Source: Parabacteroides distasonis ATCC 8503
GTDB taxonomy: Bacteria > Bacteroidota > Bacteroidia > Bacteroidales > Tannerellaceae
DNA: 64,000 nucleotides
Direction: 5' to 3'
Assembly: GCF_000012845.1 (NCBI RefSeq)
Contig: NC_009615.1
Span: 1,387,501 to 1,451,500 of the forward strand
Below, one piece after another: positions 5,082 to 61,440 of the stretch (positions within the stretch are counted from its first letter, which is position 1; each line of letters begins with the position of its first letter). Under the pieces are notes generated by a model that saw only the letters and a list, made by a program, of their open reading frames with translations, ran no database searches and had not been told where the DNA came from. A program made the translations under genes and the position numbers.

Positions 5082-5161
5082 CGCCTGTACCGGCAATGGG
5101 CTACACCAGTATCGGCGAGAGCCGGAAGCAGTACTGGTGTAACCCCACGGCAGTACTGCCG
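5082..5161. repeat. 22-bp-period palindrome array E (4 units)
   Basis: Four 14-bp quasi-palindromes at 5082, 5104, 5126 and 5148: CGCCTGTACCGGCA, CACCAGTATCGGCG, AAGCAGTACTGGTG and CGGCAGTACTGCCG. The spacers are exactly 8 bp. All share a GTAC or GTAT centre. The last unit is a perfect palindrome that extends to 24 bp (CCCC...GGGG). Units 2 and 3 pair with each other through TACACCAGTA and TACTGGTGTA. The array ends 22 bp before the stop of the convergent beta-barrel gene. This is the GC-rich member of the array family. Confidence 0.85.
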
Positions 5162-5183
5162 TGGGGCTGTGACTATATTGGGA

Positions 5184-5666
5184 TCAGAAACTATATCCTA
5201 CGCGAACGCCCAGCATGGCCTGATCGAAATCCTTGATGATATTATACTTCACCTCCAATCCTATCGAAAGATTGTCGGTAGCATAAACCTCACCGCCTAA
5301 ACCGATATTGGCTCCCAGACGAGTCTCGTTATGAGAAAGGCCATGGCCCGCATCCCAATTCCAAAAGGACAGACTAAGCCCCGCTAATGGATAAAAACCG
5401 AACATCTCACTTAACTTCACTACATAATGAGCATTCAAGTCGATCGCCCAAGTGCTGTGATTGTCATTCTTTACGAAATAAGTAAGAGACGGGCTCAAAC
5501 GTACCGCATCCGTGATACAATAGCGGTAATCAACTCCTAACGTGGCATTCTTCGAATCGAATCCATAACCGATGTTAAATCCCACGGCAGATTGTCCTTG
5601 CTGCGTCTGCGCATAAGCTCCCAGACTAAAGACTGCTAACATCAGCATCATTACAAACTTTTTCAT
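5184..5666 (-). CDS. small outer membrane beta-barrel protein
   Basis: A 160-residue protein with a signal peptide ending near residue 19 (LGAYAQ) followed by alternating polar and hydrophobic strands. It ends in aromatic Phe (VRVGYSF), the usual C-terminal signal for BamA-dependent insertion. Content and length fit the eight-stranded porin/OmpW-like barrels of Bacteroidetes. No ligand or partner can be deduced. It lies 43 bp downstream of the C69 dipeptidase gene on the same strand, so co-transcription is possible. Confidence 0.78.
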   Translation of the reverse strand: MKKFVMMLMLAVFSLGAYAQTQQGQSAVGFNIGYGFDSKNATLGVDYRYCITDAVRLSPSLTYFVKNDNHSTWAIDLNAHYVVKLSEMFGFYPLAGLSLSFWNWDAGHGLSHNETRLGANIGLGGEVYATDNLSIGLEVKYNIIKDFDQAMLGVRVGYSF

Positions 5667-5709
5667 ACGCTTTCTTTCGTTTAGTTCAACATTAGATTAT
5701 TATTGGTAT

Positions 5710-7350
5710 TTATTTTACTTTCAGTCGATCGCCGGCACTCTTCACGATGCTACGGTAATAGTCCTCGTCATATCCGGGAAAATCGGGAGATGCGGGCTGG
5801 CCGTACGGATTACGCTTGAACTGTCCGTTCACCTCTTTCTTCACGTTTCCATCGATGTATTTTACCAGCAAATACTCACCCAATTGCTTCCAGCGGGCGG
5901 TAGCGGAGTCTGAATTAGTCGTGCTATACCACGTCAAGAACTTGACAGTCTCCGCCGGGTCCTTGGCATACAACTCCTGAGCCGCCTTATCGATAGCCGG
6001 TACGGTCTCTTGATAACCATTCTCCAACTCCTGCTGTACCTTACGGATATCCTGAATCATGAAGCTATATTTGTGGTAAGCCATATTAGCCACCCAGTTA
6101 TGAATCCAGAAAGCGGAAGTCCAAGAGAAGTTCAGCAAATCGCCGTTTCCCACCCGATAGCACTCCGGAACATCCGTTACCGACGCATATACAGGAGTGA
6201 AGACCGCCATATCAGCGTCGTCCACGGCAAACCACAAGATACCACCGATAGCGTCCGGCAACCAGTTACGCATTTGTGGAACAATCACAAAGCCCGTTTG
6301 TTGCGTCGCTATGGCACGTTCATTCGTATATTCCTGCCCGTCTACCTCGAACGTCATCGGCCGCCAGCGGTAAGGAACCTTATACGAGCCGGCACCGGCA
6401 TCTTTCGTCATATCCAGATCCGTTCCCTCGTAATGGTCGCGCATGCCATTCTGTACGTCTTGAACGGAAAGCTTACGATTCGGCTTCACATACAAAGGCA
6501 TCGGCTCCTTGGAAGGATCACCCTTGATAAAATCCGTATACTGATCCATCGTGGTATCATATTTACGGAAGAAAGACCATACACGAGCCTCGCATCCACG
6601 CAAGGCGCTGAAATCATACGGGCAATAAGCCTTGGCGAAACTGAAATCAGCGTCCTTTCCCTTGAAATATCCTTTCTCACGGGCGAAAGAAACCACATCC
6701 GGCGAGTATATGCAATTCTCCTTATCGTCAAACGGTATCTGCTGGATACGGGACTGGTTGGCATGCGCCGAGATACAATCGTCCGGGATGCGGATCGCTA
6801 CCCAAACGGCACCTTTGTTACCCGGTCCCTTACCGATCATCTCCATCACCCAAGCCTCGTTCTTATCGGCGATAGAGAACGTCTCGCCACTGCTGTAATA
6901 GCCATATTCCTTTACTAAGTCCGTCATGACCTTGATCGCCTCACGGGCCGACTTGGAACGTTGCAAAGCGATGTAGATCAAGCTACCGTAATCCATGATA
7001 CCCGTCGTATCCACCAATTCATGGCGTCCGCCGAACGTACTCTCCGTGATAGCCACCTGATGCTCGTTCATGTTACCCACTACGGAATAGGTATTCTCCA
7101 CTTGGGCGATCTTGCCCAGCGGTTTTCCCGTATCCCATTCCTTCACTTCCAACATGGCGCCCTTCGGCCATGTAGCGGCGGGCCAACGATACATCTCCCC
7201 ATACAGGGAATGCGAGTCCGCCGCATAACTAATCATTACCGAACCGTCTGTCGAAGCCTTCTTGCCCACCAGCAAACCGGTACAGGCGATAGCCTCCACC
7301 CCAGATAACAGGGCGGCGCAAGCGGTTAATAAAATCCAACTCTTCTTCAT
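5710..7350 (-). CDS. C69-family dipeptidase
   Basis: A 546-residue secreted Ntn-hydrolase. After a signal peptide (residues 1-22) the mature protein would begin at Cys23 (CTGLLVGKKASTDGS), the N-terminal nucleophile of the C69/U34 dipeptidases. Conserved stretches include NEHQVAITESTFGGR and DYGSLIYIALQRSKSAREAI. The family cleaves dipeptides in the periplasm, feeding peptide catabolism. Length is typical for the Bacteroidetes members. It is followed on the same strand by a small barrel gene and preceded 12 bp upstream by nhaD. Confidence 0.88.
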   Translation of the reverse strand: MKKSWILLTACAALLSGVEAIACTGLLVGKKASTDGSVMISYAADSHSLYGEMYRWPAATWPKGAMLEVKEWDTGKPLGKIAQVENTYSVVGNMNEHQVAITESTFGGRHELVDTTGIMDYGSLIYIALQRSKSAREAIKVMTDLVKEYGYYSSGETFSIADKNEAWVMEMIGKGPGNKGAVWVAIRIPDDCISAHANQSRIQQIPFDDKENCIYSPDVVSFAREKGYFKGKDADFSFAKAYCPYDFSALRGCEARVWSFFRKYDTTMDQYTDFIKGDPSKEPMPLYVKPNRKLSVQDVQNGMRDHYEGTDLDMTKDAGAGSYKVPYRWRPMTFEVDGQEYTNERAIATQQTGFVIVPQMRNWLPDAIGGILWFAVDDADMAVFTPVYASVTDVPECYRVGNGDLLNFSWTSAFWIHNWVANMAYHKYSFMIQDIRKVQQELENGYQETVPAIDKAAQELYAKDPAETVKFLTWYSTTNSDSATARWKQLGEYLLVKYIDGNVKKEVNGQFKRNPYGQPASPDFPGYDEDYYRSIVKSAGDRLKVK

Positions 7351-7362
7351 ATAAATAAAGTT

Positions 7363-8772
7363 TTAAGCAAATAAAAGCATATATACACCGGCGCCGCAAC
7401 AATAGCCGATCAACGCCAAGATAGAGAACCGTTTCGTATAATACATAAAATCGATCTTCTCCAATCCCATTACCGTAACGCCCGTGGCCGAACCAATGAT
7501 CAAGATGCTACCCCCCGTCACGGCACAATAAGCCAAGAAGGTCCAGAAACCACCGTCCGATACAAAGAACTGTGCGTAAGGCGATAAGTCGGCCACCTGC
7601 TCCACGATCGGGTACATACCCATCGTAGCAGCTACCAAGGCTACGTTATCCACGCAGGAGGACAAGGCACCGATCACGAAGCTGATCAGATACGGCTCAT
7701 GTACATGCTTATCCAAGAAAGCGGACATGATACCCAACTGCCCGGAGGTCTCCAGCGCTCCCACGGCCATCAAGATACCCAAGAAAAAGAAGATCGTAGC
7801 CAAATCGATATTCGGCAACAATTGGGAAATACGGAGTTTCTGGGACTCATGCATGTGCAGCTTACTATACATCAAATCCGTATAGAACCAGAGGATTACC
7901 AATCCCAGCAAGACGCCCAAGAACGGCGGCAAGTTCGTCACCATCTGGAAGACAGGCACCAACGCCAAGGAAAGCACACCGATCACGAAGATCATCCGGC
8001 GTGAACGGTTCGGTATCTCCGGTATGTACTCGTCGCCTTGCTCCTCCTCGCTCAACACACGCAAAGTAGATCCTTTCTTGAACAACCAGAAATGGGCGAT
8101 CGTCAACGGCACCAACATATTAACCAAAGCGGGGATAAACACGTGAGAGATCTGGTGCATCGCCGAGATATTCTTTCCGACCCAAAGCAAGATGGTCGTC
8201 ACATCACCAATCGGCGACCATGAGCCGCCGGCGTTCGCCGCTATAATCACCATACAGGCATATTTCAAACGATCCGTACGATCCGGTACCAGCTTACGCA
8301 ACACCGCCATGATCACGATAGCGGCCGCTAAGTTATCCAATAAGGCGGAGAAGAAAAAAGTAGCGAAACTTATATACCACAACAGCTTACGTTTATTCGG
8401 CGTACGGATATACCCGGTCACGGCCCTAAAACCACCATGCTTATCCACGATATCCACGATCAACATGGAACACATCACGAAGAAAAGCGTCTCGGAGACG
8501 TTTCCTAAATGATAAACAATCGCACGGTTCGATATAAAATTAATAAATTGCTCATGCGGGGGCAAGCTGGCCATCTCCGGGTTCTGGGTCAAGAACTCTT
8601 GAAAGATCGTACTGGAGCGTTCGACGAAAATATTGTAGGCATCGAACATCAATATCATCCACATAGAGATAGCCATGAACAACGCTATGGCCGCTTTATT
8701 TATTTTGATCTTATCCTCCAAGGCAATAGCGAGGATTCCTAAGACAAAAATGACAGGCATTAAAATGAACAT
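7363..8772 (-). CDS. nhaD: Na+/H+ antiporter NhaD type
   Basis: A 469-residue inner-membrane transporter of the ion transporter superfamily. It has about a dozen hydrophobic helices, with the family segments FFFSALLDNLAAAIV (conserved Asn in the first half) and GALSSCVDNVALVAAT in the second half, the inverted repeat hallmark. GGSWSPIGDVTTILLW is also typical of NhaD. It exchanges Na+ for H+ for pH and sodium homeostasis. It sits 4 bp from nfo and 12 bp from the dipeptidase gene, so these three are probably one transcript. Confidence 0.87.
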   Translation of the reverse strand: MFILMPVIFVLGILAIALEDKIKINKAAIALFMAISMWMILMFDAYNIFVERSSTIFQEFLTQNPEMASLPPHEQFINFISNRAIVYHLGNVSETLFFVMCSMLIVDIVDKHGGFRAVTGYIRTPNKRKLLWYISFATFFFSALLDNLAAAIVIMAVLRKLVPDRTDRLKYACMVIIAANAGGSWSPIGDVTTILLWVGKNISAMHQISHVFIPALVNMLVPLTIAHFWLFKKGSTLRVLSEEEQGDEYIPEIPNRSRRMIFVIGVLSLALVPVFQMVTNLPPFLGVLLGLVILWFYTDLMYSKLHMHESQKLRISQLLPNIDLATIFFFLGILMAVGALETSGQLGIMSAFLDKHVHEPYLISFVIGALSSCVDNVALVAATMGMYPIVEQVADLSPYAQFFVSDGGFWTFLAYCAVTGGSILIIGSATGVTVMGLEKIDFMYYTKRFSILALIGYCCGAGVYMLLFA

Positions 8773-8776
8773 ATAA

Positions 8777-9622
8777 TCAAGATTTTAATTGTTTATATAG
8801 AAGCTGTATCTCCTCCGGCCAAAGCGCCTCGTCCGGGGTCTCTAGGATTAAGGGCATATTGTCGAAACGGGGGTCCACCATGATCATGCGGAAGGTATCA
8901 AGGCCCATCAAGCCTTTACCGATACTCTCATGCCGGTCCACACGTGATCCCAGCTCCTTTTTAGAATCGTTCAAGTGCATACCCCTTAAATAAGAAAAGC
9001 CGACCACCTCGTCGAAATGACGAAATGTCTCGGCAAATCCCTCCGGTGTCTTTATATCGTAACCGGCGGCAAGCGTGTGCGCCGTATCGAGGCATACTCC
9101 CACCCGGCTCTTATCCTCTACCTCATTTATAATATAGGCGATCTGCTCGAAGGTATATCCCAAGTTCGAGCCTTGCCCCGCCGTATTCTCTATCACGGCA
9201 CATACGCCACTCGTCTGAGCCAACGTGATATTGATCGACTCGGCGATGCGAGACAGGCAGGTATCCACCTCCATCTTCCCCAAATGGCTTCCGGGATGGA
9301 AATTCAGCATTTTCAGTCCCAGTTGCTCGCAGCGTGTCATCTCGTCCAGAAAAGCGTCACGGGATTTCTGCAATCCCTCGGCGTCCGGGTTCCCCAGATT
9401 GATCAAATAGCTATCGTGCGGCAAGATACATCCCGGATCGTAACCGTACGCTTCACACCGCTCCTTAAATAAATGGATACTGTCCGCCTTCAACGGCTGC
9501 GACTTCCATTGCCTCTGATTCCGGGTGAAAAGGGCAAAAGCCTTCGCACCGATCTCATGGGCATTAACGGGGGCATTCTCAACCCCACCGACCGCACTCA
9601 CGTGAGCCCCAACATACTTCAT
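8777..9622 (-). CDS. nfo: deoxyribonuclease IV (endonuclease IV)
   Basis: A 281-residue AP endonuclease of the TIM-barrel EndoIV family, which cleaves 5' of abasic sites in base excision repair. The metal-ligand motifs are present: [27 protein letters not shown] and [26 protein letters not shown] residues (the last begins at about residue 216). Length equals the usual 280. It is tightly linked to nhaD downstream (4 bp) and lies 6 bp from the thioesterase gene upstream, indicating one operon without an obvious functional link. Confidence 0.93.
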
Positions 9623-9628
9623 AATAAC

Positions 9629-10126
9629 CTAACTTTTCTTTTTATTTATACTAATTTCATCCTCAGTCTTACACCCACAAAAACCAAACTCCTCCATCGC
9701 ACGTTCTTGCGGGGTGATGAAATAAACCATCTCGGCACGGGTACACAACTCATTCGCCGAGTTATAGATCTCGGTCTCTATGAAGATGGCGTTCCGTTTC
9801 CGGTCTATCATCCGTCCCCGTATCATCAGTTGGGGCTCGTCCGTAGAGATACTCTTCATAAACTTGGCGTCGAGGCGTGAGGTCACCCCGGAGGTCTGCA
9901 ACTTCCTCAAGACCACCCAGCCGGCCAACTCATCCATCAGCGTAGTCTGTATACCTCCGTGCAACGTACGTAGCCATCCTTGGTAAGTACCTTGCGGCTT
10001 CCAGAACGCCACGATATCGTCACCATCCTCAAAAAACTCCATATGCAGCCCCAGCGGATTGTTCGGAGCGCAACCGAAACACATATAACCGTCCAGCCCT
10101 TCCCACGGATTAATTATCTTTTTCAT
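9629..10126 (-). CDS. PaaI-like hotdog thioesterase
   Basis: A 165-residue single-domain hotdog protein. It contains the PaaI-type motif HGGIQTTLMDELAGW, in which the Gly-Gly turn and the acidic residue form the thioesterase active site. The N-terminal MCFGCAPNNPLGLHMEF is common in the acyl-CoA thioesterases of this group and a second Cys pair lies near the end (FGFCGC). It probably hydrolyses an aromatic or short acyl-CoA in the cytoplasm; the substrate is unknown. It is the first gene of the run leading to nfo and nhaD. Confidence 0.8.
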   Translation of the reverse strand: MKKIINPWEGLDGYMCFGCAPNNPLGLHMEFFEDGDDIVAFWKPQGTYQGWLRTLHGGIQTTLMDELAGWVVLRKLQTSGVTSRLDAKFMKSISTDEPQLMIRGRMIDRKRNAIFIETEIYNSANELCTRAEMVYFITPQERAMEEFGFCGCKTEDEISINKKKS

Positions 10127-10170
10127 ATCACGAAAACAATATTTATATGTTTTTTGTTGCTCAAAGTTAA

Positions 10171-10203
10171 CAAAAAAGCCGGCTCTTGAAAGGAACCGGC
10201 TCT
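10171..10203 (-). terminator. Rho-independent terminator after arginine decarboxylase
   Basis: On the minus strand a hairpin with AGCCGG/CCGGCT arms is followed by six T residues, 31-63 bp after the decarboxylase stop. It separates that gene from the thioesterase operon. Confidence 0.75.
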
Positions 10204-10233
10204 ATAAATATCACAAAAAATACTCAACACGAC

Positions 10234-10773
10234 TTATTCCTCGATCTCCGGTTGAAGGAAATCCACGAAGCAAAGGGCGGCCAACGCCGTTCCATAGCGT
10301 TTCTCGATCGTAATTCCCTCGGTGATAAAGTTAAGCTCTCCAAGATAATACTTCCCATACGTCTTCTGATGAAGATCGTTAATAACACGGATCAGACGAG
10401 ACTCAAGCTCCTCGATGCGGTAACGTCCGCTGACCTCACACACAAGGCCACCAACCTTCTCATCAAAGTTCTCATCCTTATACATCCATGCGTAAACCAC
10501 ACCAGCAGACACGAACTCATCCTGATATCCATGGGATACAGCCATGATCGTTTTCATTTCCGAACCAAATGGAGGAAGGTCTAGTTCATCCATGGTTGCC
10601 AGATGTGCCGTAGCGGGTATCACCGACGAATACGTCATGATATTAAAATCAGAGATACCGGCGTCATAAAGAGCCATGTGGTAAGAACCAGCGTGTTTCT
10701 CCAAGTCTGATTCGCCACTTCCTTTTGTAATAAAAAAGGTGTTTGGAATTAAATTCCCAACTTTCTTTACCAT
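10234..10773 (-). CDS. pyruvoyl-dependent arginine decarboxylase
   Basis: A 179-residue proenzyme of the PvlArgDC family, which makes agmatine from arginine at the start of putrescine and spermidine synthesis. Self-cleavage is expected between Ser49 and Ser50 in MTYSSVIPA, which creates the pyruvoyl group on the alpha chain. GAxxYAWM and the acidic C-terminus are also family-like. It stands alone, with its own terminator, so other polyamine genes must be elsewhere. A TATTTTTG -7 box lies at 10816-10823 on the minus strand. Confidence 0.9.
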   Translation of the reverse strand: MVKKVGNLIPNTFFITKGSGESDLEKHAGSYHMALYDAGISDFNIMTYSSVIPATAHLATMDELDLPPFGSEMKTIMAVSHGYQDEFVSAGVVYAWMYKDENFDEKVGGLVCEVSGRYRIEELESRLIRVINDLHQKTYGKYYLGELNFITEGITIEKRYGTALAALCFVDFLQPEIEE

Positions 10774-10815
10774 CTACAAATATGTTTTACTTATTAATAA
10801 AAGCTTAAGAGCGCA

Positions 10816-10823
10816 CAAAAATA
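10816..10823 (-). promoter_or_regulatory. -7 box for arginine decarboxylase gene
   Basis: The minus strand reads TATTTTTG, matching TAnnTTTG, 43 bp upstream of the start codon. No good -33 element was seen. Confidence 0.45.
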
Positions 10824-11041
10824 GAAACTTTTGCGATATATAACACATAGTTTTCCCTATAAAACTTTAGCCGCAAACATATTTTCACTAAAAAATCATC
10901 ACCGAACCCAGAACTTTCATCCCCTCGGCTCTGTTTATATAGTAAATCAACATAAAAAACTAGAAGACAATGCTTACATTATGTTTAAGTTTATTATTAA
11001 TGATCACAAATAGTCAAATAACAGATAAAAAAGAAGAAGTT

Positions 11042-11617
11042 ATGAAATTCGAGTTAATCCAGTTACCGTACGCAAACGACGGTTTAGAACCAGTTATCAG
11101 CAAACAAACAATTGATTTCCATTACGGAAAACATTTATTGAACTATGTAAATACCCTTAATAAGCTGATTGAGGGCACGAAATTCGAGAACGCTCCGCTG
11201 GAGCAGATCGTTCGTGAGTCTGACGGAGCCATTTTCAACAATGCCGGCCAAGTATTGAATCACAATCTATATTTTACCCAATTCTCCCCGAACGGAGGTG
11301 GCGAACCTACGGGTAAGCTAGCCGAGGCTATCAAGTCTACGTGGGGATCGTTCGAGAACTTCCAGAAAGAGTTCGTGGCCGCCGGTACAGGCTTGTTCGG
11401 CTCAGGATGGGTATGGTTGGCTAAAGATAAAGACGGCAAACTTTCAATTACCAAAGAACCCAACGGTAGTAACCCGGTCGTTAAGGGATTGACTCCGATC
11501 ATGGGATTCGATGTATGGGAGCATTCTTACTATCTGGATTACCAGAACCGCCGTGCGGATCATTTGAACGCATTGTGGAGGATTATCGACTGGGAAACCG
11601 TTGGTAAGAGATATTGA
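11042..11617 (+). CDS. sodB: superoxide dismutase, Fe-type
   Basis: A 191-residue Fe/Mn superoxide dismutase. Metal ligands His27, His74, Asp157 and His161 are all present (HYGKH, LNHNLYF, GFDVWEH), and Gln70 in NNAGQVLNH is the Fe-type outer-sphere glutamine. Bacteroides relatives are often cambialistic, so Mn use is possible. I chose the ATG at 11042, giving a normal N-terminus MKFELIQLPY. An in-frame ATG at 10970 would add 24 residues that look hydrophobic at first; this is probably chance. A GC-rich hairpin with a T run follows the stop. Confidence 0.93.
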   Translation: MKFELIQLPYANDGLEPVISKQTIDFHYGKHLLNYVNTLNKLIEGTKFENAPLEQIVRESDGAIFNNAGQVLNHNLYFTQFSPNGGGEPTGKLAEAIKSTWGSFENFQKEFVAAGTGLFGSGWVWLAKDKDGKLSITKEPNGSNPVVKGLTPIMGFDVWEHSYYLDYQNRRADHLNALWRIIDWETVGKRY

Positions 11618-11649
11618 TTTAATTTGATGTAAGTTACGTGTAGAGAAGA

Positions 11650-11683
11650 GCCGCCCGAGAGTTTTCCCGGACGGTTTTTTTCG
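11650..11683 (+). terminator. terminator after sodB
   Basis: The arms CCGCCCG and CGGACGG pair with one mismatch and are followed by a T run (ggttttttt). Confidence 0.65.
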
Positions 11684-11712
11684 TTCCCTTTTGAAAAAAA
11701 ATGCCTCCAGCT

Positions 11713-11743
11713 ATTGCATCGTAAGATATTATTACTACCTTTG
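11713..11743 (+). promoter_or_regulatory. promoter of the tRNA-Thr/tRNA-Tyr unit
   Basis: The -33 element ATTG (11713-11716), a 19-bp gap and an exact -7 box TACCTTTG (11736-11743) fit the Bacteroidetes primary sigma consensus. The start would fall about 15 bp before tRNA-Thr. Confidence 0.75.
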
Positions 11744-11765
11744 CACCCGCAAACGAATAACAGAT

Positions 11766-11839
11766 GCCTCTTTAGCTCAGTTGGCCAGAGCACGTGATTT
11801 GTAATCTCGGGGTCGTTGGTTCGAATCCGACAAGAGGCT
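11766..11839 (+). tRNA. tRNA-Thr (anticodon TGT)
   Basis: A 74-nt cloverleaf. The acceptor arms GCCTCTT and AAGAGGC pair fully, with T as discriminator. The D arm is GCTC/GAGC and the T arm contains GGTTCGAATCC. The anticodon loop TTTGTAA gives TGT at 11800-11802. The anticodon stem has one T-T mismatch in the middle. The CCA end is not encoded. Confidence 0.95.
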
Positions 11840-11858
11840 CAATAAAACATATTGGAAT

Positions 11859-11941
11859 GGGCAGTTACCAGAGTGGCCAAATGGGGCTGACTGTAACTCA
11901 GCTGGCTTTCGCCTTCGGTGGTTCGAATCCATCACTGCCCA
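11859..11941 (+). tRNA. tRNA-Tyr (anticodon GTA)
   Basis: An 83-nt cloverleaf with acceptor arms GGGCAGT and ACTGCCC, discriminator A, the anticodon stem GCTGA/TCAGC around loop CTGTAAC (anticodon GTA), and the long variable arm normal for bacterial tRNA-Tyr. It lies 19 bp after tRNA-Thr and shares its promoter. The CCA end is not encoded. Confidence 0.95.
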
Positions 11942-11946
11942 CGAAT

Positions 11947-11975
11947 AAAAAGGACTCTTCTTAGAGTCCTTTTTT
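11947..11975 (+). terminator. Rho-independent terminator of the tRNA unit
   Basis: Perfect arms GGACTCT and AGAGTCC with a TCTT loop are flanked by an A run and a T run, six bp after tRNA-Tyr. Confidence 0.9.
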
Positions 11976-11986
11976 GTTTCTATCCA

Positions 11987-12021
11987 TAAAAAAAGTCCTT
12001 CCCTATCACTAGGAAAGAACT
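11987..12021 (-). terminator. terminator after NigD-like gene
   Basis: Reading the minus strand, GTTCTTTCCTA pairs with TAGGGAAGGAC using G-U pairs and is followed by seven T residues. It lies 64 bp past the stop of the minus-strand lipoprotein gene. Confidence 0.7.
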
Positions 12022-12084
12022 TTCAAAAAGCAAGGGAGATTCACTCCCTGCCAAATCCCCATCTATTTAAACGATCAAACCGAC

Positions 12085-12840: not shown

Positions 12841-12966
12841 AATACTTCCTTTCTAAGTTTATCAATTAAACTAATCAACCTTTTAATTCTATAAAATTAG
12901 AAATGCGTTTTAGGGCGGAAATGCTGCATATGTGTATGTTAATTAAACCAAACAAGGCATGTCTCC

Positions 12967-16613: not shown

Positions 16614-16693
16614 AACACTATTGTATTCACGGCTGAACACAATAGTATTCATAGAAAAACACAGTAGTATTCACAATCGAATACTACTGTGTT
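16614..16693. repeat. 22-bp-period palindrome array A (4 units)
   Basis: Units at 16614, 16636, 16658 and 16680 are AACACTATTGTATT, AACACAATAGTATT, AACACAGTAGTATT and AATACTACTGTGTT, with 8-bp spacers. Unit 4 is the exact reverse complement of unit 3, and the cores of units 1 and 2 are inverted. Every unit fits ACNNNNGT at positions 4-11. The array fills the gap between the convergent GH3 gene (stop at 16612) and the barrel gene (stop at 16712). No other terminator is visible there. Confidence 0.87.
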
Positions 16694-31611: not shown

Positions 31612-31669
31612 AACACGTACGAGTTTTTCCGGAAACACGTACATGTTTTTTGAAATTCACGTACGTGTT
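31612..31669. repeat. 22-bp-period palindrome array D (3 clean units)
   Basis: Units at 31612, 31634 and 31656 are AACACGTACGAGTT, AACACGTACATGTT and TTCACGTACGTGTT, each with a GTAC centre and 8-bp spacers. The array lies 35 bp past the stop of the DUF4858-like gene and about 250 bp upstream of clpB, with both genes on the minus strand. Confidence 0.8.
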
Positions 31670-50806: not shown

Positions 50807-50909
50807 AAGACTACCGTATTCCGGTGATAAACACTATAGTATTCATCTTCAAACACTACTGTGTTTATCCACGAATACTATAGTGTTCTCACACGAACAC
50901 AGTAGTCTT
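50807..50909. repeat. 22-bp-period palindrome array B (5 units)
   Basis: Units at 50807, 50830, 50852, 50874 and 50896 are AAGACTACCGTATT, AACACTATAGTATT, AACACTACTGTGTT, AATACTATAGTGTT and AACACAGTAGTCTT. Spacers are 8 bp except the first, 9 bp. Units 2 and 4 are exact reverse complements. The sequences are nearly those of array A. All five fit ACNNNNGT. The array starts 28 bp upstream of the adenosyltransferase start and ends 10 bp before the dnaJ stop; no terminator hairpin of the usual type is present. Confidence 0.87.
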
Positions 50910-52073: not shown

Positions 52074-52103
52074 CCTTGTATTTGTTATTTGCCGATTTTC
52101 CGA

Positions 52104-52853: not shown

Positions 52854-52904
52854 CCTATGTTTTAAACGAAACAGGTATTTTTAGAGTAAATAAAATTCCA
52901 GAAT

Positions 52905-54335: not shown

Positions 54336-54350
54336 AGATTTTACAAACAC

Positions 54351-56819
54351 GTGATATATCCACAAAATTTTGAACAAAAGACGGGCTTTGATAAGATCCG
54401 TCACTTAATCACAGAAAAATGTTTAAGCCCGCTCGGGGAAGAGCGGGTAGCGGAGATGGGATTCTCCGCCGATTTCGAGGTCGTATCCAAGCGATTGGAA
54501 CAAACCGATGAGTTTATCCGTATCCTACACGGAGACACGGAATTCCCTGCCAGTTATTTCTTCGACGTGCGCTATTCCTTGAAACGGATTCGGCCGGAAG
54601 GTACTTGGCTGGATGAACGGGAGTTGTTCGACCTCAAACGTTCCTTGCAAACGATCAATGACATCGTACGCTTCTTCAAGCCTATGGACGATGAGGAAAT
54701 CAAGTATCCGGCCTTGACTGAATTGGCGGGAGATATCTTTGTCTTCCCCCAATTGATTGGAAAGATCGATAGTATCCTCGATAAATTCGGCAAGGTCAAG
54801 GACAGTGCTTCCTCCACCCTATCGCAAATCCGCAGGGAAATGACGATCACGATGAGCGGTATTTCCCGCAGCCTGCAATCCATCCTCCGTGCGGCACAAT
54901 CGGACGGGGTTGTCGATAAGGACGTGACACCGACCATGCGCGACGGTCGTTTGATGATCCCGGTAGCCCCGGCCTTCAAACGAAAGATAAAAGGTATCGT
55001 ACATGATGAGTCCGCCAGTGGCAAGACGGTCTTTATAGAGCCGGAGGTGGTCGTGGAAGCGAATAACCGCATCCGGGAACTGGAAGGGGAAGAACGCCGG
55101 GAAATCATTAAGATACTGACGGAATTCACGAACGTGATCCGTCCTTTAGCTCCGGATATCCTACAATCTTACGAGTTTCTTGCCGACATTGACTTCATTC
55201 GTGCGAAAGCGTTATTCGCGGAGCAAGTCAAGGCGATCAAGCCGATCGTGGAGGATAAGCGACAAATGGATTGGGTACGTGCCGTGCATCCGCTCTTATT
55301 CCTGTCTTTACAGAAACAGGGCAAGCAGGTAGTTCCCCTCGATATCGAGCTGACCGAGGGAAAACGGATCTTGATCATATCCGGTCCGAACGCCGGTGGT
55401 AAATCCGTTTGCCTGAAAACGGTCGGATTACTTCAATACATGTTGCAATGTGGTTTATTGATTCCTTTGCATGAGCGATCAAGAACCGGGATCTTCGAGC
55501 ATATATTCATCGATATAGGCGATGAGCAAAGCATCGAGAACGATTTGAGTACCTACAGTTCCCACCTTACCAACATGAAGTATTTCGTGAAGAATTGTAA
55601 CGAGCGGACCATTATCCTAATCGATGAGTTCGGTAGCGGTACGGAACCCCAGATTGGCGGCGCTATCGCCGAGGCTTTATTGGATCGCTTCAACCGGAAT
55701 CATAGCTTTGGGGTAATCACGACCCACTACCAGAATTTGAAGCATTTCGCCGAGGATACGGAAGGTATCGTAAACGGTGCCATGTTGTACGACCGCCATT
55801 TGATGCAGCCCTTGTTCAAGCTTTCTATCGGAAATCCGGGTAGCTCTTTTGCCGTAGAGATCGCACGCAAGATCGGTCTGCCCGAGGACGTGATAGCCGA
55901 CGCTTCCGCGAACGTCGGAGCGGATTATATCAATATGGACAAATACCTGCAAGATATCGTACGCGATAAACGGTACTGGGAAAGCAAACGGCAGAATATC
56001 CGTCAGCAGGAGAAAAAACTGGAAGATGTCACTTCCCGTTATGAACAAGACTTGGAAGCCGTAAACAAGCAACGGAAAGAGATCATCCGGGAGGCAAAGG
56101 CCGAGGCCCAACGTATTCTAGCGGAGGCTAACGCCAAGATCGAGAATACCGTCCGTGAGATCAAGGAGGCCCAAGCGGAAAAAGAACAGACCAAACTGGC
56201 CCGCAAAGCCTTGGAAGAGTTCAAGAACTCCGTCATGGCGACCGAAGAAGAAGACGATAAGATCGCACGCAAGATGGCGAAGCTCAAGGAACGGAACGAA
56301 CGGAAGAAACAGAAACAAAAAGTGACGGCCCAGCCGATATTTAATAAAGAGGTGATAGAGGTCGGCGACAATGTACGCCTTAAAGGGCAGGTTTCCGCCG
56401 GAACCGTTATGGAACTACAAGGAAAGCAGGCCGTAGTAGCATTCGGGATGATCAAAAGCACGGTTAAGCTGGAGCAGTTGGAAAAGGTAAGCAAAGGCCA
56501 GATCAAACGGGAAATCCAGAAAAGCACGTTCGTCAGCTCCCAGACCACTGACAATATGCATGAGAAGAAGATAAACTTTAAGCAAGAAATCGATGTGAGA
56601 GGAATGAGGGGCGATGAGGCATTGCAAAGCGTGACTTATTTTATCGACGACGCCATTCAAGTCGGGGCAGGCAAGGTTCGCATCTTACATGGAACCGGTA
56701 CGGGTATCTTACGTCAGCTAATCCGGGATTATCTGCGCACGGTTCCCGGTGTCCGTCGCTTTCAAGACGAGCATGTGCAGTTCGGAGGCGCCGGTATCAC
56801 CGTTGTTGAGTTTGATTAA
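54351..56819 (+). CDS. mutS2: endonuclease MutS2
   Basis: An 822-residue MutS2 protein, GTG start. Walker A is ISGPNAGGKSVCLKT and Walker B ILIDEFGSGTEP. A long coiled coil (about 520-640) leads to a KOW-like region and the C-terminal Smr endonuclease domain (IDVRGMRGDEAL ... LHGTGTGILRQLIRDYL). MutS2 is known to suppress recombination or to rescue stalled ribosomes, depending on species. It follows the PDZ-protein gene by 15 bp; corA follows by 15 bp. Confidence 0.95.
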   Translation: MIYPQNFEQKTGFDKIRHLITEKCLSPLGEERVAEMGFSADFEVVSKRLEQTDEFIRILHGDTEFPASYFFDVRYSLKRIRPEGTWLDERELFDLKRSLQTINDIVRFFKPMDDEEIKYPALTELAGDIFVFPQLIGKIDSILDKFGKVKDSASSTLSQIRREMTITMSGISRSLQSILRAAQSDGVVDKDVTPTMRDGRLMIPVAPAFKRKIKGIVHDESASGKTVFIEPEVVVEANNRIRELEGEERREIIKILTEFTNVIRPLAPDILQSYEFLADIDFIRAKALFAEQVKAIKPIVEDKRQMDWVRAVHPLLFLSLQKQGKQVVPLDIELTEGKRILIISGPNAGGKSVCLKTVGLLQYMLQCGLLIPLHERSRTGIFEHIFIDIGDEQSIENDLSTYSSHLTNMKYFVKNCNERTIILIDEFGSGTEPQIGGAIAEALLDRFNRNHSFGVITTHYQNLKHFAEDTEGIVNGAMLYDRHLMQPLFKLSIGNPGSSFAVEIARKIGLPEDVIADASANVGADYINMDKYLQDIVRDKRYWESKRQNIRQQEKKLEDVTSRYEQDLEAVNKQRKEIIREAKAEAQRILAEANAKIENTVREIKEAQAEKEQTKLARKALEEFKNSVMATEEEDDKIARKMAKLKERNERKKQKQKVTAQPIFNKEVIEVGDNVRLKGQVSAGTVMELQGKQAVVAFGMIKSTVKLEQLEKVSKGQIKREIQKSTFVSSQTTDNMHEKKINFKQEIDVRGMRGDEALQSVTYFIDDAIQVGAGKVRILHGTGTGILRQLIRDYLRTVPGVRRFQDEHVQFGGAGITVVEFD

Positions 56820-56834
56820 AAAGAGATCCTTATT

Positions 56835-57911
56835 ATGAGACGGAATGAATATACACACAGGAGAAGACATATATCCAACCGGCATTTATCGGACAAGTAT
56901 TATTACGCCGGCGAACATGAGACAGCAACCGGCATCCGTCTCACTCAATACAACGAACAATCTTTGCATACGAAAGAGGTGCGGATAACCGACACCTCTT
57001 TCAGCAAACTAACCGACTCGAATCAGATCAATTGGTTCGAGGTTAGCGGATTGACCAATGCGGATGCCATTACCCGTATCGTAAAAGATTTCGGACTGCA
57101 TAATCTGGACGCTAAGGATATCTTGACTCCCCAACACGTGGTCAAGGTAGAGGAATACAAAGGACGAATGCTTATCGTATTAAACTCCTGCTATTACGAT
57201 GTCAATAACGAGATGCGGTCTGAGCACATCAGCATACTGGTAGCTAACAATACGGTTATCACTTTTACGGAAAGCAACAACCCCGTATTCGAGGCCGCTC
57301 ATAAAGCGCTACTATCCAACATGCTGAACATCCGGAAAAAAGGCAGTGGATTGCTGCTCGCTTTCCTTCTAAACACCATCATAGCGAATCTAGTAGAATC
57401 CGCCTCAAAGGTAGAAGAGATACTAGAGGATATAGAAGAGACTTTGCTCGATCCTAAGAACGATCAGGGTAATATGGGTTCCCTAATCCAACAACACCGC
57501 CATGAGTACATGATTATCCGTAAGAATAGCCTACCGCTGAAAGATCAATTCTCAAAACTATTACGAACAGAGAACGGGATTATCACCCCGGATATCCTAC
57601 CGATCTATAATGACCTGCAAGACCAACTCCAATTCGTTATCCAAACAACGGAAAGCTGCCGGGAAATCACCTCTTCCCTTGTCGATCTTTATATATCCAA
57701 TAACGATCTTAGGATGAACGCCATCATGAAACGGCTGACGATTGTCTCCACCCTTTTCATCCCTTTGACATTCTTGGTGGGCGTATGGGGTATGAACTTC
57801 AAGATAATGCCGGAATTGGATTGGCGTTACGGTTATTTCATCGCTTGGGCCGTCATGATAGCTACCGGAGTATTGACTTGGCTATATATGAAACGAAAGG
57901 ATTGGTATTAA
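56835..57911 (+). CDS. corA: magnesium/cobalt transporter CorA
   Basis: A 358-residue CorA channel, the usual length. A large cytoplasmic N-terminal domain precedes two C-terminal helices; the selectivity motif is GMNF in GVWGMNFKIMPEL, and the C-terminus is basic (MKRKDWY). It takes up Mg2+ or Co2+ as a pentamer. It follows mutS2 by 15 bp and its stop lies 9 bp before the stop of the convergent recombinase gene. Confidence 0.94.
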   Translation: MRRNEYTHRRRHISNRHLSDKYYYAGEHETATGIRLTQYNEQSLHTKEVRITDTSFSKLTDSNQINWFEVSGLTNADAITRIVKDFGLHNLDAKDILTPQHVVKVEEYKGRMLIVLNSCYYDVNNEMRSEHISILVANNTVITFTESNNPVFEAAHKALLSNMLNIRKKGSGLLLAFLLNTIIANLVESASKVEEILEDIEETLLDPKNDQGNMGSLIQQHRHEYMIIRKNSLPLKDQFSKLLRTENGIITPDILPIYNDLQDQLQFVIQTTESCREITSSLVDLYISNNDLRMNAIMKRLTIVSTLFIPLTFLVGVWGMNFKIMPELDWRYGYFIAWAVMIATGVLTWLYMKRKDWY

Positions 57912-57920
57912 AACCAATCC

Positions 57921-58529
57921 TTACGATCTGAAGAATTTCTTCCTATACTTATAAAAAGTATTCTTAGAGACGTTGAAATGCTCGCAAATCGATCCTACCG
58001 ATTCTCCCCGCTCCAACATGTTCATGATCTCCCCCTTATGGGCATCCAAGAAGAACAACTTGGATTCCGAGCCTTTAGGACGTCCCAACCGCTTTCCCGT
58101 ACTTTTCACCTGTTCCAAGGCGTCTTTTGTACGTATGGAAACCAGACTGTGATCAATCTCGTCTACTTGCTTGAAGACATTAATCATCAATTGGCGATCC
58201 ATCCGGTCATCGAATATATAACGGTCGTTTATACAATAGACCGTCACGTCCTTCTCCATGCAAACGGTAAGTATCCCCATCAACTCATATAAGGTAAGAC
58301 ACAAACGGGTAATATCCGATACGATCAAGGCATCCCCTTTCTTCAAGCGTTCGAGAACAAGTTTTAACTTTGGTCCCGGCTGTTTCGCTTTCTCTCCGGA
58401 TACTTCCATGACCCATTTATCCACATGGATATCTTTGGCCGCAGCAAAAGAAGAGATCTCTTCCCTTTGAATATCCAAGTGTTGCCGGTCCGTAGCCACA
58501 TTTAAATACGCTATCGTCATAAATTTCAC
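57921..58529 (-). CDS. serine-recombinase family protein lacking catalytic serine
   Basis: A 202-residue protein of the resolvase/invertase fold, like the Mpi-type invertases of Bacteroides. The start AYLNVATDRQ aligns to the family YxRVSTxxQ, so the catalytic Ser is Ala12 and the catalytic Arg is Asn10. In SDITRLCLTL the first Arg is kept but the second (R71 in gamma-delta resolvase) is Leu. The C-terminal helix-turn-helix (VGSICEHFNVSKNTFYKYRKKFF) is intact. It is an unbroken gene, so it is probably a DNA-binding protein and not a recombinase. Confidence 0.85.
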   Translation of the reverse strand: MKFMTIAYLNVATDRQHLDIQREEISSFAAAKDIHVDKWVMEVSGEKAKQPGPKLKLVLERLKKGDALIVSDITRLCLTLYELMGILTVCMEKDVTVYCINDRYIFDDRMDRQLMINVFKQVDEIDHSLVSIRTKDALEQVKSTGKRLGRPKGSESKLFFLDAHKGEIMNMLERGESVGSICEHFNVSKNTFYKYRKKFFRS

Positions 58530-58605
58530 TAATTGTTTCTAGCGTGAAGGTACAAAAAGAATGAGTATATCTTCAAGATTATGGGATGTTTAACGCTTTA
58601 TTTCG

Positions 58606-58613
58606 TACATTTG
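58606..58613 (+). promoter_or_regulatory. -7 box for the AlkZ-like gene
   Basis: TACATTTG matches the consensus, 18 bp before the ATG at 58632, which supports that start over the one at 58581. Confidence 0.6.
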
Positions 58614-58631
58614 CGTTTATATTCATATATT

Positions 58632-59720
58632 ATGATAACACATATACGAGTAGCTAGCCAACAATTGGAACAACCCCGATTCGAGTCCCCGAAAGAGTTG
58701 GTCTCTTGGATGGGCGCTATCCAGGCGCAGGAGTATGAGATGGCCAAATGGGCGATCGGTATTCGCTTGAGATCCTCTTCCCTTGAAAAGGTAAATGAGG
58801 CTTTGTACAAAGGTGATATTCTACGTACCCATGTGATGCGTCCTACTTGGCATTTCGTGGCCGCCGAGGATATCCGTTGGATGCTTATGCTATCTTCCGA
58901 GCGTATCAAGGCTGCCGTTATGTCGTACGCCAAGGGACATTTCGGGAAGATAGAAAAAACGCTGTTCACAAGATACCTAGATCAGATCGGAAAGATACTG
59001 GAAGGATACAAAAGCCTGACCAAACAAGAAGTAACGACGGAATTGCAAAAATCCGGGATTTTGCCCACCATAGATCACGTAAACCTTTTCCTTACATGGG
59101 GTGAGGTGGAAGGCATCGTCTGTAGCGGGATCGATAAAGGAAAGAAAACGACTTACGCCTTATTGGACGAACGTGTCCCTCCTACTCGTGAACTTTGCAG
59201 GGAAGAGGCTCTGGCGAGATTGGCATCCAGATATTTTCAAAGCCACTCCCCTGCCCAGTTACAGGATTTTGTTTGGTGGTCCGGGCTAACCGCTACCGAG
59301 TGTAGGCTCGCTATCAATCTGATCAAGACGGAGTTAATAACCGAGACGTTCGATTCCCGTGAATATTTCATCCACCAATCATGGAAAGGAAAAAATGAGA
59401 GCAAACCTGTACTGCGTCTCCTCCCCGCCTTCGATGAATACTTGATCAGTTACAAAAACCGCACGGACGTATTGCCGCTAGAACATCATCCAAAAGCGTT
59501 CAACCGATTCGGTACCTTCTACCCAGTTATCTTGTATAACGGAAAGATAATAGGTAATTGGAGCCGCTCCATTAAAAAAAACACCATTCAAATAGAAATG
59601 GACTTTTTCGAGAAGAAGCCCCGCATTCCAGTGAAATTAATCCAGCAGGCCGAAGCGCAGATAGACGCTTTTTATAGAGGCTTATCGCACCGCCCAGCGC
59701 TTCAATGTCGGGAAAAATAA
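58632..59720 (+). CDS. AlkZ-like (HTH_42) DNA glycosylase-type protein
   Basis: A 362-residue protein of the HTH_42 winged-helix superfamily. It begins MITHIRVASQQLEQPRF, with a Gln31-Ala-Gln33 motif in GAIQAQEYEMAKWAIG, which matches the QxQ active site of AlkZ-type enzymes that remove bulky alkylated bases and unhook interstrand crosslinks. LTWGEVEGIVCSGI and LLPAFDEYLISYKNR are also family hallmarks. It stands alone with its own -7 box. Its last 39 bp overlap the 3' end of the convergent zinc-ribbon gene. Confidence 0.83.
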   Translation: MITHIRVASQQLEQPRFESPKELVSWMGAIQAQEYEMAKWAIGIRLRSSSLEKVNEALYKGDILRTHVMRPTWHFVAAEDIRWMLMLSSERIKAAVMSYAKGHFGKIEKTLFTRYLDQIGKILEGYKSLTKQEVTTELQKSGILPTIDHVNLFLTWGEVEGIVCSGIDKGKKTTYALLDERVPPTRELCREEALARLASRYFQSHSPAQLQDFVWWSGLTATECRLAINLIKTELITETFDSREYFIHQSWKGKNESKPVLRLLPAFDEYLISYKNRTDVLPLEHHPKAFNRFGTFYPVILYNGKIIGNWSRSIKKNTIQIEMDFFEKKPRIPVKLIQQAEAQIDAFYRGLSHRPALQCREK

Positions 59721-59957
59721 TTTCATATTCGCTACGGCCTCCTCTTTCGTATAATGAAAGTCCGCATCTTTATTGAACTCATCGACAAACTGGGCACAAT
59801 GATCGATCATCTGATCCATCGTACAAGCCATCGTGAAGGCCCCGTCCTTATAACAATAGCAACAATATTCCTCATTCTTGCTTCCGTCATGGTTCGTTCC
59901 TAACTCCTCATTCTTTTGCAGCGGCATACCGCAGCTTTGGCAAAATTTTGTTTCCAT
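59682..59957 (-). CDS. small zinc-ribbon protein
   Basis: A 91-residue soluble protein. The N-terminus FCQSCGMPLQ and EYCCYCYKDGAF form a four-cysteine zinc ribbon. The C-terminal 45 residues (TMDQMIDHCAQFVDEF) form a helical region. This domain pair is common as a stand-alone zinc-ribbon protein in Bacteroidetes; role unknown. It lies 6 bp downstream of the AraC-type gene on the same strand, so co-transcription is likely. Confidence 0.85.
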   Translation of the reverse strand: METKFCQSCGMPLQKNEELGTNHDGSKNEEYCCYCYKDGAFTMACTMDQMIDHCAQFVDEFNKDADFHYTKEEAVANMKLFFPTLKRWAVR

Positions 59958-59963
59958 ACTAAT

Positions 59964-60581
59964 TTATTTTATTGGTATATAAATCTTTGTCACTTGGGTA
60001 TCGTCATCCTCTTCCGAATAACTCACATATTCCTCAAACGCCATTCCATGCCGTTTGGTATAATTGAAATCTATATTTATAGTATTATATAGTTCTTGTA
60101 ATCCCGCATAACTACCTTTTAAGGTATAAACCGCATATTTTCCTTTCTGCAAACGAATCGTACCGAACATCCCTGATGGAATAATCTCCTTCCCGACCGA
60201 AGCATTACTCCACTTCTCGGTCTCTTCTCTCAGACGTGCTCGCAACTTATCCATATAAGCTTTCGGAGATACGCTGAATTGTTTCTTGAACGCTTTCGAG
60301 AAAGATTGGGGGTTATCATAGCCTACCCGACTCGCTAGATCTGCCAGACTCATATCTTCCGTATGCATATATAGAACCGCTCGCTCTACACGTTGCCTCG
60401 CCACATAAGCATATAATGACTCATTCAAGGCTCCTTTCATAATACGTAGTAGCTGCCGCTCGGACACGTTTACTTGCCCGGCTATTATATCCAGTCGTAA
60501 AGGGAGATGCAAATTCGCATTGATATAATCAATTACTTGATTGATTTTCCGTTGATATATGTTTTCCGTATCAGGCTTCAT
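59964..60581 (-). CDS. AraC-family regulator with GyrI-like C-terminal domain
   Basis: A 205-residue regulator. Residues 15-115 hold the AraC double helix-turn-helix (LDIIAGQVNVSERQLLRI and LASRVGYDNPQSFSKAFKKQFSVSP). The C-terminal 75 residues resemble a shortened GyrI-like ligand domain (GMFGTIRLQKGKYAVYTLKGSY). This layout is known from regulators that sense drugs or small molecules. I chose the ATG at 60581 because the longer frame starts at a TTG with a hydrophobic stretch. It and the zinc-ribbon gene form a unit. Confidence 0.87.
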   Translation of the reverse strand: MKPDTENIYQRKINQVIDYINANLHLPLRLDIIAGQVNVSERQLLRIMKGALNESLYAYVARQRVERAVLYMHTEDMSLADLASRVGYDNPQSFSKAFKKQFSVSPKAYMDKLRARLREETEKWSNASVGKEIIPSGMFGTIRLQKGKYAVYTLKGSYAGLQELYNTINIDFNYTKRHGMAFEEYVSYSEEDDDTQVTKIYIPIK

Positions 60582-60769
60582 CCTATAGATTCTTATGATG
60601 ACAAAAATACATAATCCCAACAGACTGACAATTGTCCAATCTCGCCAATTTGAGATTTCCCCTATATTTGTTTAAAAGCCATCAACTTCAAGATTCTATA
60701 GATTGTAAAATCAGTAATTCTGTTACACTTATCAGTAATTGGTATACAAAAGTAATGGAATATCTTAAA

Positions 60770-60777
60770 TAATTTTG
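60770..60777 (+). promoter_or_regulatory. -7 box for the cupin gene
   Basis: TAATTTTG matches the consensus. Transcription from it would begin near 60785, after the ATG at 60782, which favours the ATG at 60806 as start. Confidence 0.45.
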
Positions 60778-60805
60778 TGATATGGATAAAATCAAGAAAA
60801 CAAAT

Positions 60806-61300
60806 ATGAATATAAAGAAAATAACCATTGCCATGTTGATCACATTAATCTCTATTGGCAATATAAACGCACAAGAAATGAAAACTGAAATTCCAAAAAT
60901 TAGTGAATTCCCTACAGGAAATGAAAACACCGGGTTTGAACAATATTTCTCGGGGAAGTCTTGGCTAGCGCCATTAACAAGCAATAAGGATTTAAACGTA
61001 CCAATGTTTAACGTAACGTTTGAACCTAACTGCCGAAACAACTGGCACACGCATACAGGAGGGCAGATACTCATCGCCGTAGGTGGTGTGGGTTATTATC
61101 AAGAACGAGGTAAAAGCGCCCGTCGTTTACTACCCGGGGATGTTGTCGAAATCGCACCAAACGTAGAGCATTGGCACGGCGCCTCACCGGACAGTTGGTT
61201 TTCGCATATCGCCGTAGAATGCAATCCCCAAACCAACAAAAATACTTGGCTTGAGCCGGTAAGTGATGAGGAATATGGGAAGGCCGTAAATGATAAGTAG
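60806..61300 (+). CDS. secreted cupin-domain protein
   Basis: A 164-residue protein with signal peptide MNIKKITIAMLITLISIGN to about residue 23. The body is one cupin barrel: WHTHTGGQILIAVGGVGYY has the HxH metal ligands and PGDVVEIAPNVEHWHGAS the second motif with its His. It probably binds a metal and a small substrate in the periplasm. Similar proteins are often linked to carboxymuconolactone-decarboxylase genes, but none is near. An ATG at 60782 in frame would add eight residues. Confidence 0.82.
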   Translation: MNIKKITIAMLITLISIGNINAQEMKTEIPKISEFPTGNENTGFEQYFSGKSWLAPLTSNKDLNVPMFNVTFEPNCRNNWHTHTGGQILIAVGGVGYYQERGKSARRLLPGDVVEIAPNVEHWHGASPDSWFSHIAVECNPQTNKNTWLEPVSDEEYGKAVNDK

Positions 61301-61338
61301 TAAATTTTCCTTATCGTTTACACAAACCGAGCCTAAAA

Positions 61339-61440
61339 GACACTCCGGTTTCCATAGGAAGAAACTGCAGTTTCTTCCTATGGAAACTGTAGTTCCCTCC
61401 TTGGGAAACTACAGTTTTCTGCTAAAAAAACTATAGTTTC
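61339..61440. repeat. 22-bp-period palindrome array C (5 units)
   Basis: Units at 61339, 61361, 61383, 61405 and 61427 are GACACTCCGGTTTC, GAAACTGCAGTTTC, GAAACTGTAGTTCC, GAAACTACAGTTTT and AAAACTATAGTTTC; spacers are exactly 8 bp. All fit ACNNNNGT. The two spacers beside unit 2 are reverse complements, so 61348-61387 is a perfect 40-bp palindrome. The array lies 38 bp past the cupin stop and about 100 bp before the end of a convergent small ORF. Confidence 0.88.

Follow-up and report, generated by a model that had tools for sequence, protein, structure and literature searches.

What reads a short, self-complementary sequence that recurs between genes at a fixed step of 22 bp? This question is raised by a 64,000-nucleotide stretch of the chromosome of Parabacteroides distasonis ATCC 8503 (C1:1387501-1451500 of the 4,811,379-bp single contig of the host genome, G000; the whole stretch is called the window below). 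Five arrays of 14-bp palindromic units are found in it, here named A (5082..5161), B (16614..16693), C (31612..31669), D (50807..50909), and E (61339..61440). All 21 units described in an earlier note on this DNA were located, each being self-complementary at 4-7 of 7 base pairs (mean 5.14, vs 1.92 in 6,139 intergenic 14-mers of the window). The 8-bp spacers were upheld as well, including the single 9-bp exception, which follows the unit at 50807. The claim that 14 units match ACNNNNGT in register is correct for the arrays at 16614, 50807, and 61339, but fails for those at 5082 (0 of 4 units) and 31612 (1 of 3 only).

We consider it likely that these are arrays of sites acting at the DNA level, that part of the array families is bound by proteins which carry an HU-HIG domain and a C-terminal winged helix (HU-wHTH, ~200 residues), and that the families of the window work likewise. 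Hairpins in RNA, terminators, or mobile repeats would account for less of what is seen. CRISPR (clustered regularly interspaced short palindromic repeats) had been dismissed in the earlier note, and we agree: the 14-bp units vary within an array and the spacers have 8 bp, while the near-identical repeats of ~23-50 bp and unique spacers of similar length that define CRISPR are absent from the window arrays. Rfam at gathering thresholds returned only two tRNAs for the whole window, and no structured-RNA family on the arrays.

Excess over chance in the host chromosome

The chromosome was scanned in an 864-kb sample (40 spaced 20-kb stretches plus the window) and in a larger sample of 1.664 Mb (35% of the chromosome). 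In the 864-kb sample, chains of at least three 14-mers with at least 5 of 7 pairs occur 18 times at lag 22 and 0-6 times at each other lag from 14 to 60. Chains of at least four ACNNNNGT matches occur six times at lag 22 and at no other lag. The scan for 22-bp-phased palindrome arrays that had been proposed was run on the larger sample with a combined palindrome and similarity score. It yielded 62 arrays at lag 22 versus 0-2 at seven control lags (18, 19, 20, 25, 26, 27, and 28); the neighbouring lags 21 and 23 gave 1 and 5 in the 864-kb sample. The two-unit AACAC..GTGTT pattern has 77 matches in the genome, and its reversed control has none. Chance is excluded, and the five arrays are genuine members of a large class. 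Scaling up from the sample, the whole chromosome would hold ~180 arrays.

One geometry is realized in many sequence families, and the 22-bp period is common to families with unrelated sequences. Families were named by eye and include F1 (AACACTAYTGTGTT; arrays B and D), F2 (AACACGTACGTGTT; array C), F3 (GAAACTnnAGTTTC; array E), F4 (GAAACGATCGTTTC, or equally TTCACnnnnGTGAA at a half-period shift), F5 (GGCACnnnnGTGCC), F6 (AGTACTGCAGTACT), F7 (TGCATGATCATGCA), and the family of array A ([CT]GCCnGTACnGGC). Automatic clustering (single linkage at 0.55) chained 39 of 65 arrays into one group and was uninformative for those.

Constraint, turnover, and range of the arrays

Orthologous gaps were aligned for unit gain and loss, as had been suggested, using 19 gaps from genome G016 (2 skipped) and 7 from genome G050 (16 skipped, being too different to align). 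Array pieces were made for 42 of the 62 arrays, and 31 of these were taken into the follow-up comparison. Between the host and G016 (19 arrays), 73 of 1096 positions differ in units, 58 of 480 in spacers, and 286 of 2430 in other intergenic DNA (unit vs spacer, Fisher p 0.0005). The corresponding values for G050 (7 arrays) are 47 of 406, 47 of 176, and 197 of 662 (p 1e-5). Unit divergence is about half that of spacers or other intergenic DNA. The constraint resides in the outer four bases of each arm: in the comparison with G016, 24 of 628 positions changed in the outer arms versus 49 of 468 in the centre.

This pattern is the one expected of two half-sites separated by a single helical turn. 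The same would be seen with a 5-bp stem and an unconstrained loop, but compensated changes are rare: the single changes within units relative to G016 comprise 25 that break and 12 that make a pair, as compared to 4 compensated double changes. Each unit is probably a two-fold site consisting of two half-sites of 4-5 bp, read by a dimer. The 22-bp step would place successive dimers on one face of the DNA, where contacts between them could make binding cooperative, and many such families exist in parallel within the genus. The earlier note's prediction that a dimeric protein binds the units on one side of the helix is supported by the constraint on half-sites, the freer centre, the period shared by unrelated families, and the arrays at 19 of 19 HU-wHTH genes (see below).

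Changes in unit number relative to G016 and G050 mostly comprise whole units, in multiples of 22 bp. For example, array D has three units fewer in G050, and there are two units more at 2554596; exceptions are one 21-bp insertion at 379591 and one of 24 bp at 1594814. At 752575, 962533, and 1392582, the flanks match in G050 but enclose an array from a different family; the same holds at 1938868 for one flank only, at a contig end.

The same turnover can be read at the RNA level, as chains of hairpins or extended bidirectional intrinsic terminators which grow by 22-nt duplications of arm plus loop. We regard this as unlikely, even though the gap next to dnaJ, which holds array D, speaks in its favour. 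That gap has five units in the host and in G016, two in G050, and none in G001; the two-unit hairpin of G050 is combined with a T-run, and in many other species an unrelated, ordinary hairpin terminator occupies the place (30 loci, judged by eye). Many F1 and F2 arrays are flanked by A-runs and T-runs, also as judged by eye.

The position of the arrays between genes bears on this alternative in both directions. Genes were called with a simple codon-pair caller rather than taken from an annotation. According to these calls, 55 of the 62 arrays lie between two genes (16 convergent, 26 tandem (16 and 10), and 13 divergent), 4 lie inside called open reading frames (ORFs; two of these score weakly), and 3 lie at stretch edges. 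Gaps of more than 90 bp in the sample comprise 70 convergent, 319 tandem, and 140 divergent ones (total 529). Convergent gaps are therefore over-represented (16 of 55 vs 70 of 529), which speaks for this alternative, but divergent gaps hold arrays at close to the expected rate (13 of 55 vs 140 of 529). The T count after arrays is 3.9 of 8 in ++ gaps, compared to a background of 2.4, but is not raised in -- gaps (2.4).

Folding and base-pair statistics are similarly divided. Folding z-scores are about -6 on both strands, but they were determined with single-base shuffles, and any palindrome folds well by its very nature. In tandem-gap arrays, G-U mismatches on the sense strand outnumber A-C mismatches by 30 to 18, which we consider too weak to serve as an RNA signature; new arm mismatches between species, counted on the + strand regardless of gene direction, comprise 12 of the G-U type and 3 of the A-C type. 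Folding of a whole array into one long hairpin looked convincing in the case of array D and of some F2 arrays with three units; as a general solution it was rejected: units in mirror positions pair at 8.89 of 14 bases compared to 8.48 for other units, with 22 arrays above, 35 below, and 5 equal. Moreover, structure at the RNA level gives no reason for a step of exactly 22 across unrelated families, nor for arrays upstream of all 19 HU-wHTH genes read. The chain of RNA hairpins, which the earlier note had offered as its second option, is thus the less supported one, given the few compensated changes, the lack of general mirror pairing, and the near-expected share of divergent gaps.

Dispersed selfish repeats of the REP (repetitive extragenic palindromic), BOX, or MITE (miniature inverted-repeat transposable element) kind, devoid of a binding role in the host, are another candidate, and in our view a very improbable one. 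Each family has many copies, and several F2 places have ACAATAAG before the array or at both ends, which is reminiscent of the boxA-boxBn-boxC organization of BOX elements. F2 loci with at least two units number 22 in the host stretches that were read. They take the form of bare three-unit arrays and of elements of ~200-230 bp (L181, L184, L186, L029, L094, and other F2 loci of the host). ACAATAAG lies 70-99 bp before an array unit at nine F2-type places in the host, and is found exactly at both ends of two F2 loci and nearly so at others. A flank motif common to all arrays was not obtained, the top words being present in at most 8 of 124 flanks, and ACAATAAG, with 8 occurrences, was traced to F2. 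At L182 (G000:1308000-1308880), two families stand in tandem: directly after an F2 array comes one which by eye resembles the A/F11 family. Selfish repeats are contradicted by the conservation of orthologous units beside freely diverging spacers, and by the pairing of some families with HU-wHTH genes. An origin from REP elements and their associated tyrosine transposase (RAYT) was rejected for the lack of matches to the REP-type Y1 transposase (PF01797) in the three array genomes compared (G000, G016, and G050); 8 of 38 genomes of the genus have a match.

Arrays with other unit sequences number 7 in 120 kb of G012 and 3 each in 140 kb of G014 and 140 kb of G018; control lags give 0-1. A set of 17 named Parabacteroides loci contains 9 arrays in 316 kb (control lags 0-3). 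By comparison, 1 array is found in 215 kb from 14 loci of other Tannerellaceae (vs 4 at lag 21) and 4 in 826 kb from another 49 loci, almost all of them from Bacteroidales (5, 3, and 4 at lags 21, 23, and 24), while 20 stretches from genomes of the same order contain 2 in 246 kb (controls 0-4). The two-unit F1/F2 pattern is present in 14 of 25 genomes of the genus and in 1 of 16 others. As arrays occur in several Parabacteroides and are near the control rate outside, the class looks centred on this genus.

HU-wHTH proteins as candidate binders

Genes next to arrays were listed (101, without those of at least 2,400 nt or crossing a stretch end), and 94 of them were scanned, five short ORFs and two edge ORFs being left out. 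The commonest Pfam families among these 94 proteins are HU-HIG and Bac_DNA_binding, with four each. HU-type proteins are known as sequence-blind DNA benders. The HU-HIG domain was reportedly defined by Burroughs and others in 2017; besides HU-wHTH, the other type of HU-HIG protein is glycine-tailed (Gly-tailed).

The host has 23 HU-HIG matches, and an array (period 21-23, at most 1.5 kb away, strict threshold) is present at 9 of the 14 strongest and at none of the 9 weaker ones. PF18291 HU-HIG matches number 54 in G018, compared to 14-23 in G000, G012, G013, and G014. The 30 best-scoring HU-HIG loci from a further four species were read as well; an array is present at 13 of 19 loci with ORFs of at least 170 residues and at 3 of 11 with shorter ones, and 15 of these 16 arrays lie within ~230 bp upstream of the domain start.

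The HU-wHTH genes read number 19 from five genomes: 4 in the host, which is the total found there by a winged-helix profile together with HU, and 15 elsewhere. In all 19 cases, the 250 bp upstream of the gene contain an array which scores above the 95th percentile of 60 shuffles of the same sequence (only marginally for L352, 5.5 vs 5.1), and each of these arrays carries its own palindrome. The period is 22 in 16 and 21 in 3 of them. The shuffle test is passed by 27 of 239 other host genes and by 55 of 250 with a gap of at least 150 bp (11-22%). At the strict threshold, 13 of the 19 HU-wHTH genes have an array (2 of 4 in the host, 11 of 15 elsewhere), while the baseline, derived from the host only, is 38 of 1,399 called genes (p 1e-16) and 22 of 250 genes with a wide gap. 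Winged-helix proteins outside HU-HIG were considered and rejected: two weak matches (621017 and 1498903) were obtained, at loci without an array at the strict threshold.

The candidate binders match the HU-HIG profiles PF18291 / TIGR01201, with L332 and L343 below the TIGR01201 cut-off. The predicted model of L328 (predicted local distance difference test 88.6, predicted template modelling score 0.58) shows an HU fold with a C-terminal winged helix. Its best PDB match is the Bacteroides protein 4FMR, followed by HU proteins, and IHF was also matched.

The upstream arrays of 13 of the 19 HU-wHTH genes (two from the host) were compared to the sampled arrays. The L328 array is matched by family F4 and the L332 array by family F7, in each case with 4 of 62 arrays at a similarity of 0.83 or above, the gene's own array counted, so that three further sampled arrays are associated with each of the two genes. 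Among six sampled arrays from other species, one from G012 matches its own HU-wHTH gene L355 at 0.95. F7 has 21 matches in the host (10 loci) and 16 in G016, but none in the 36 other genomes, some of them incomplete, among the 38 searched. The L332 protein has 96% identity in G016, the next values being 67% and 55%, and 38% in the close relative G050; F7 is confined to the two of 38 genomes with a near-identical L332 gene. Beyond this co-occurrence, protein identity is correlated with half-site similarity (Mantel test, r 0.41, p 0.0002, n=16, the three period-21 HU-wHTH arrays being left out), and the site of the closest protein has a mean rank of 3.9 of 15 (expected 8).

Two further resemblances were observed. 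The AAACACCGGTGTTT arrays of G014 look by eye like the one that precedes a short-type HU-HIG gene in this genome (L209, L366), and at G000:393205 there is a dispersed odd-palindrome array with period 21 that is very similar to the upstream array of HU-wHTH gene L343.

HU-wHTH, a lineage-specific paralog of the HU superfamily, is thus the probable reader of part of the families. When bound to the array over its own promoter, such a protein would exert feedback on its own gene. Binding to further arrays of the same family between genes would extend its control to other intergenic regions, and the dispersed arrays may serve to regulate neighbouring genes, to insulate transcription units, or to organize the nucleoid. 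F1, F2, F3, and the family of array A would work likewise.

Several observations weigh against this interpretation. The five arrays of the window match none of the 13 HU-wHTH arrays: their best values are 0.33-0.49, compared to a null 99th percentile of 0.50, although three of the five exceed the 95th percentile of 0.44 (the period-21 arrays of the host, L338 and L343, were compared with them by eye only). For five of the six arrays sampled in other species, similarity to the compared HU-wHTH arrays stays below 0.6. The array families of the host far outnumber its 4 HU-wHTH genes, and several arrays occupy the places of intrinsic terminators in related species. Among HU-wHTH arrays, 3 of 19 have a period of 21 rather than 22, and short-type HU-HIG loci of other species have an array in only 3 of 11 cases. 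The HU-wHTH genes read come from the best-scoring HU-HIG loci, which in G018 means 8 of 54. Units and phases for the Mantel test were chosen by hand, and in two of the 16 cases the site of the nearest protein fits badly (ranks 10 and 13 of 15).

As the window arrays lack a match to the 13 HU-wHTH arrays, we do not file them as HU-wHTH operators. They have the palindromic units and the period (21-22 bp) of such operators, but not the match to an HU-wHTH array from the same genome that is seen for F4 and F7. F1, F2, F3, and the family of array A might instead be read by a non-HU protein family, with HU-wHTH covering only families such as F4 and F7. Such a division of labour, which is compatible with our preferred explanation, is possible but rather doubtful. 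It would account for the missing matches, and since F3-like arrays are also present in G012 and G018, the F3 binder may be a conserved protein. However, window and HU-wHTH arrays share the same period and half-site geometry, and often the same AC....GT core. In addition, F1 and A arrays lie at most 1.5 kb from the Gly-tailed HU-HIG genes L336 and L331, though not directly upstream; array A clusters with an array found 588 bp upstream of the HU-HIG domain in the same genome (L331). This nearness may be due to chance, and Gly-tailed HU-HIG proteins are candidates only as binders of the window families. A binder of F1, F2, F3, F5, and F6 was also sought in ten array-adjacent genes; no obvious one was found, and one gene, beside an F5 array, codes for an extracytoplasmic function (ECF) sigma factor. 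Two of the three sampled F5 (GGCAC..GTGCC) arrays lie ~100-130 bp upstream of ECF sigma factor genes (L017:18265-18768, L068:7214-7816).

As a tentative extension of the HU-wHTH explanation, for which we would claim somewhat less than even chances, Parabacteroides chromosomes may be covered by several mutually orthogonal address systems. Each would consist of a sequence-specific HU-superfamily protein with its private phased palindrome arrays of 21-22 bp, scattered between genes; these systems would arise, diverge, and supplant one another quickly and would serve nucleoid organization or regulons via cooperative stretches on one face of the DNA. If this holds, a branch of HU proteins fused to a reader domain, and equipped with an operator array of its own and dispersed targets, would represent a new way to mark and shape a bacterial chromosome, and part of the large HU-HIG expansion in the genus would obtain a candidate role. 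The 19 candidate protein-site pairs from five genomes would make the evolution of specificity testable and provide a list of possibly orthogonal DNA-binding parts.

The window arrays and known systems

The window arrays, to none of which a strand is assigned, have diverse neighbours. Array A (5082..5161; four units, period 22) lies in the tail-to-tail gap between a HAD hydrolase gene (+) and an outer membrane protein (OMP) beta-barrel gene (-), and is directly preceded by a stretch of alternating CA/TG-rich sequence (4978-5048). Array B (16614..16693; four units, period 22) fills the 99-bp gap between two convergent stops, one ending a GH3 glycosidase gene and the other an ORF for which Pfam gave no match; it is also present in G016, with changes in units and spacers. 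Array C (31612..31669; three units, period 22) has TTTCnnAAA-like spacers and lies between two genes of the - strand, one with a borderline match to DUF4858 and one of the ClpB-type AAA class. Array D (50807..50909; five units, spacers of 9, 8, 8, and 8 bp) lies between dnaJ (-) and a cobalamin adenosyltransferase gene (-). Array E (61339..61440; five units, period 22) is located downstream of a cupin-domain ORF (+).

A literature search, which largely covered sources other than subscription journals, returned no title or opening of an abstract that describes these arrays or the binding of HU-HIG proteins to arrays. REP elements and BIMEs (bacterial interspersed mosaic elements) are intergenic, palindromic, multicopy, and often near gene ends, and the same is true for the arrays described here. 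These differ by their 14-bp unit in an exact 22-bp array, by the many families per genome, and by the lack of a Y1 transposase match in G000, G016, and G050. Pneumococcal BOX elements have a variable number of repeats between conserved ends, as do some F2 loci, but most arrays lack such ends, the repeated units are short dyads, and genes for DNA-binding proteins are paired with some families. The chromosome-organizing systems ParB-parS and MatP-matS each consist of a sequence-specific protein with sites scattered on the chromosome. Scattered sites for such a protein are also proposed here, but they are grouped in phased arrays of 3-9, with several families of one geometry per genome.

The BrickBuilt MITEs of Porphyromonas gingivalis, which belongs to the same order, resemble the arrays in having short tandem repeats (a minisatellite), but the main text of their description (PMC4596501) mentions neither palindromes nor lengths of 22 or 23 bp nor Parabacteroides. 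The candidate binders match HU/IHF proteins by profile, and the predicted L328 model has the HU fold. Classical HU is described as binding DNA without sequence specificity (PMC5683647), whereas HU-wHTH has an additional winged helix and is encoded behind a palindrome array of its own.

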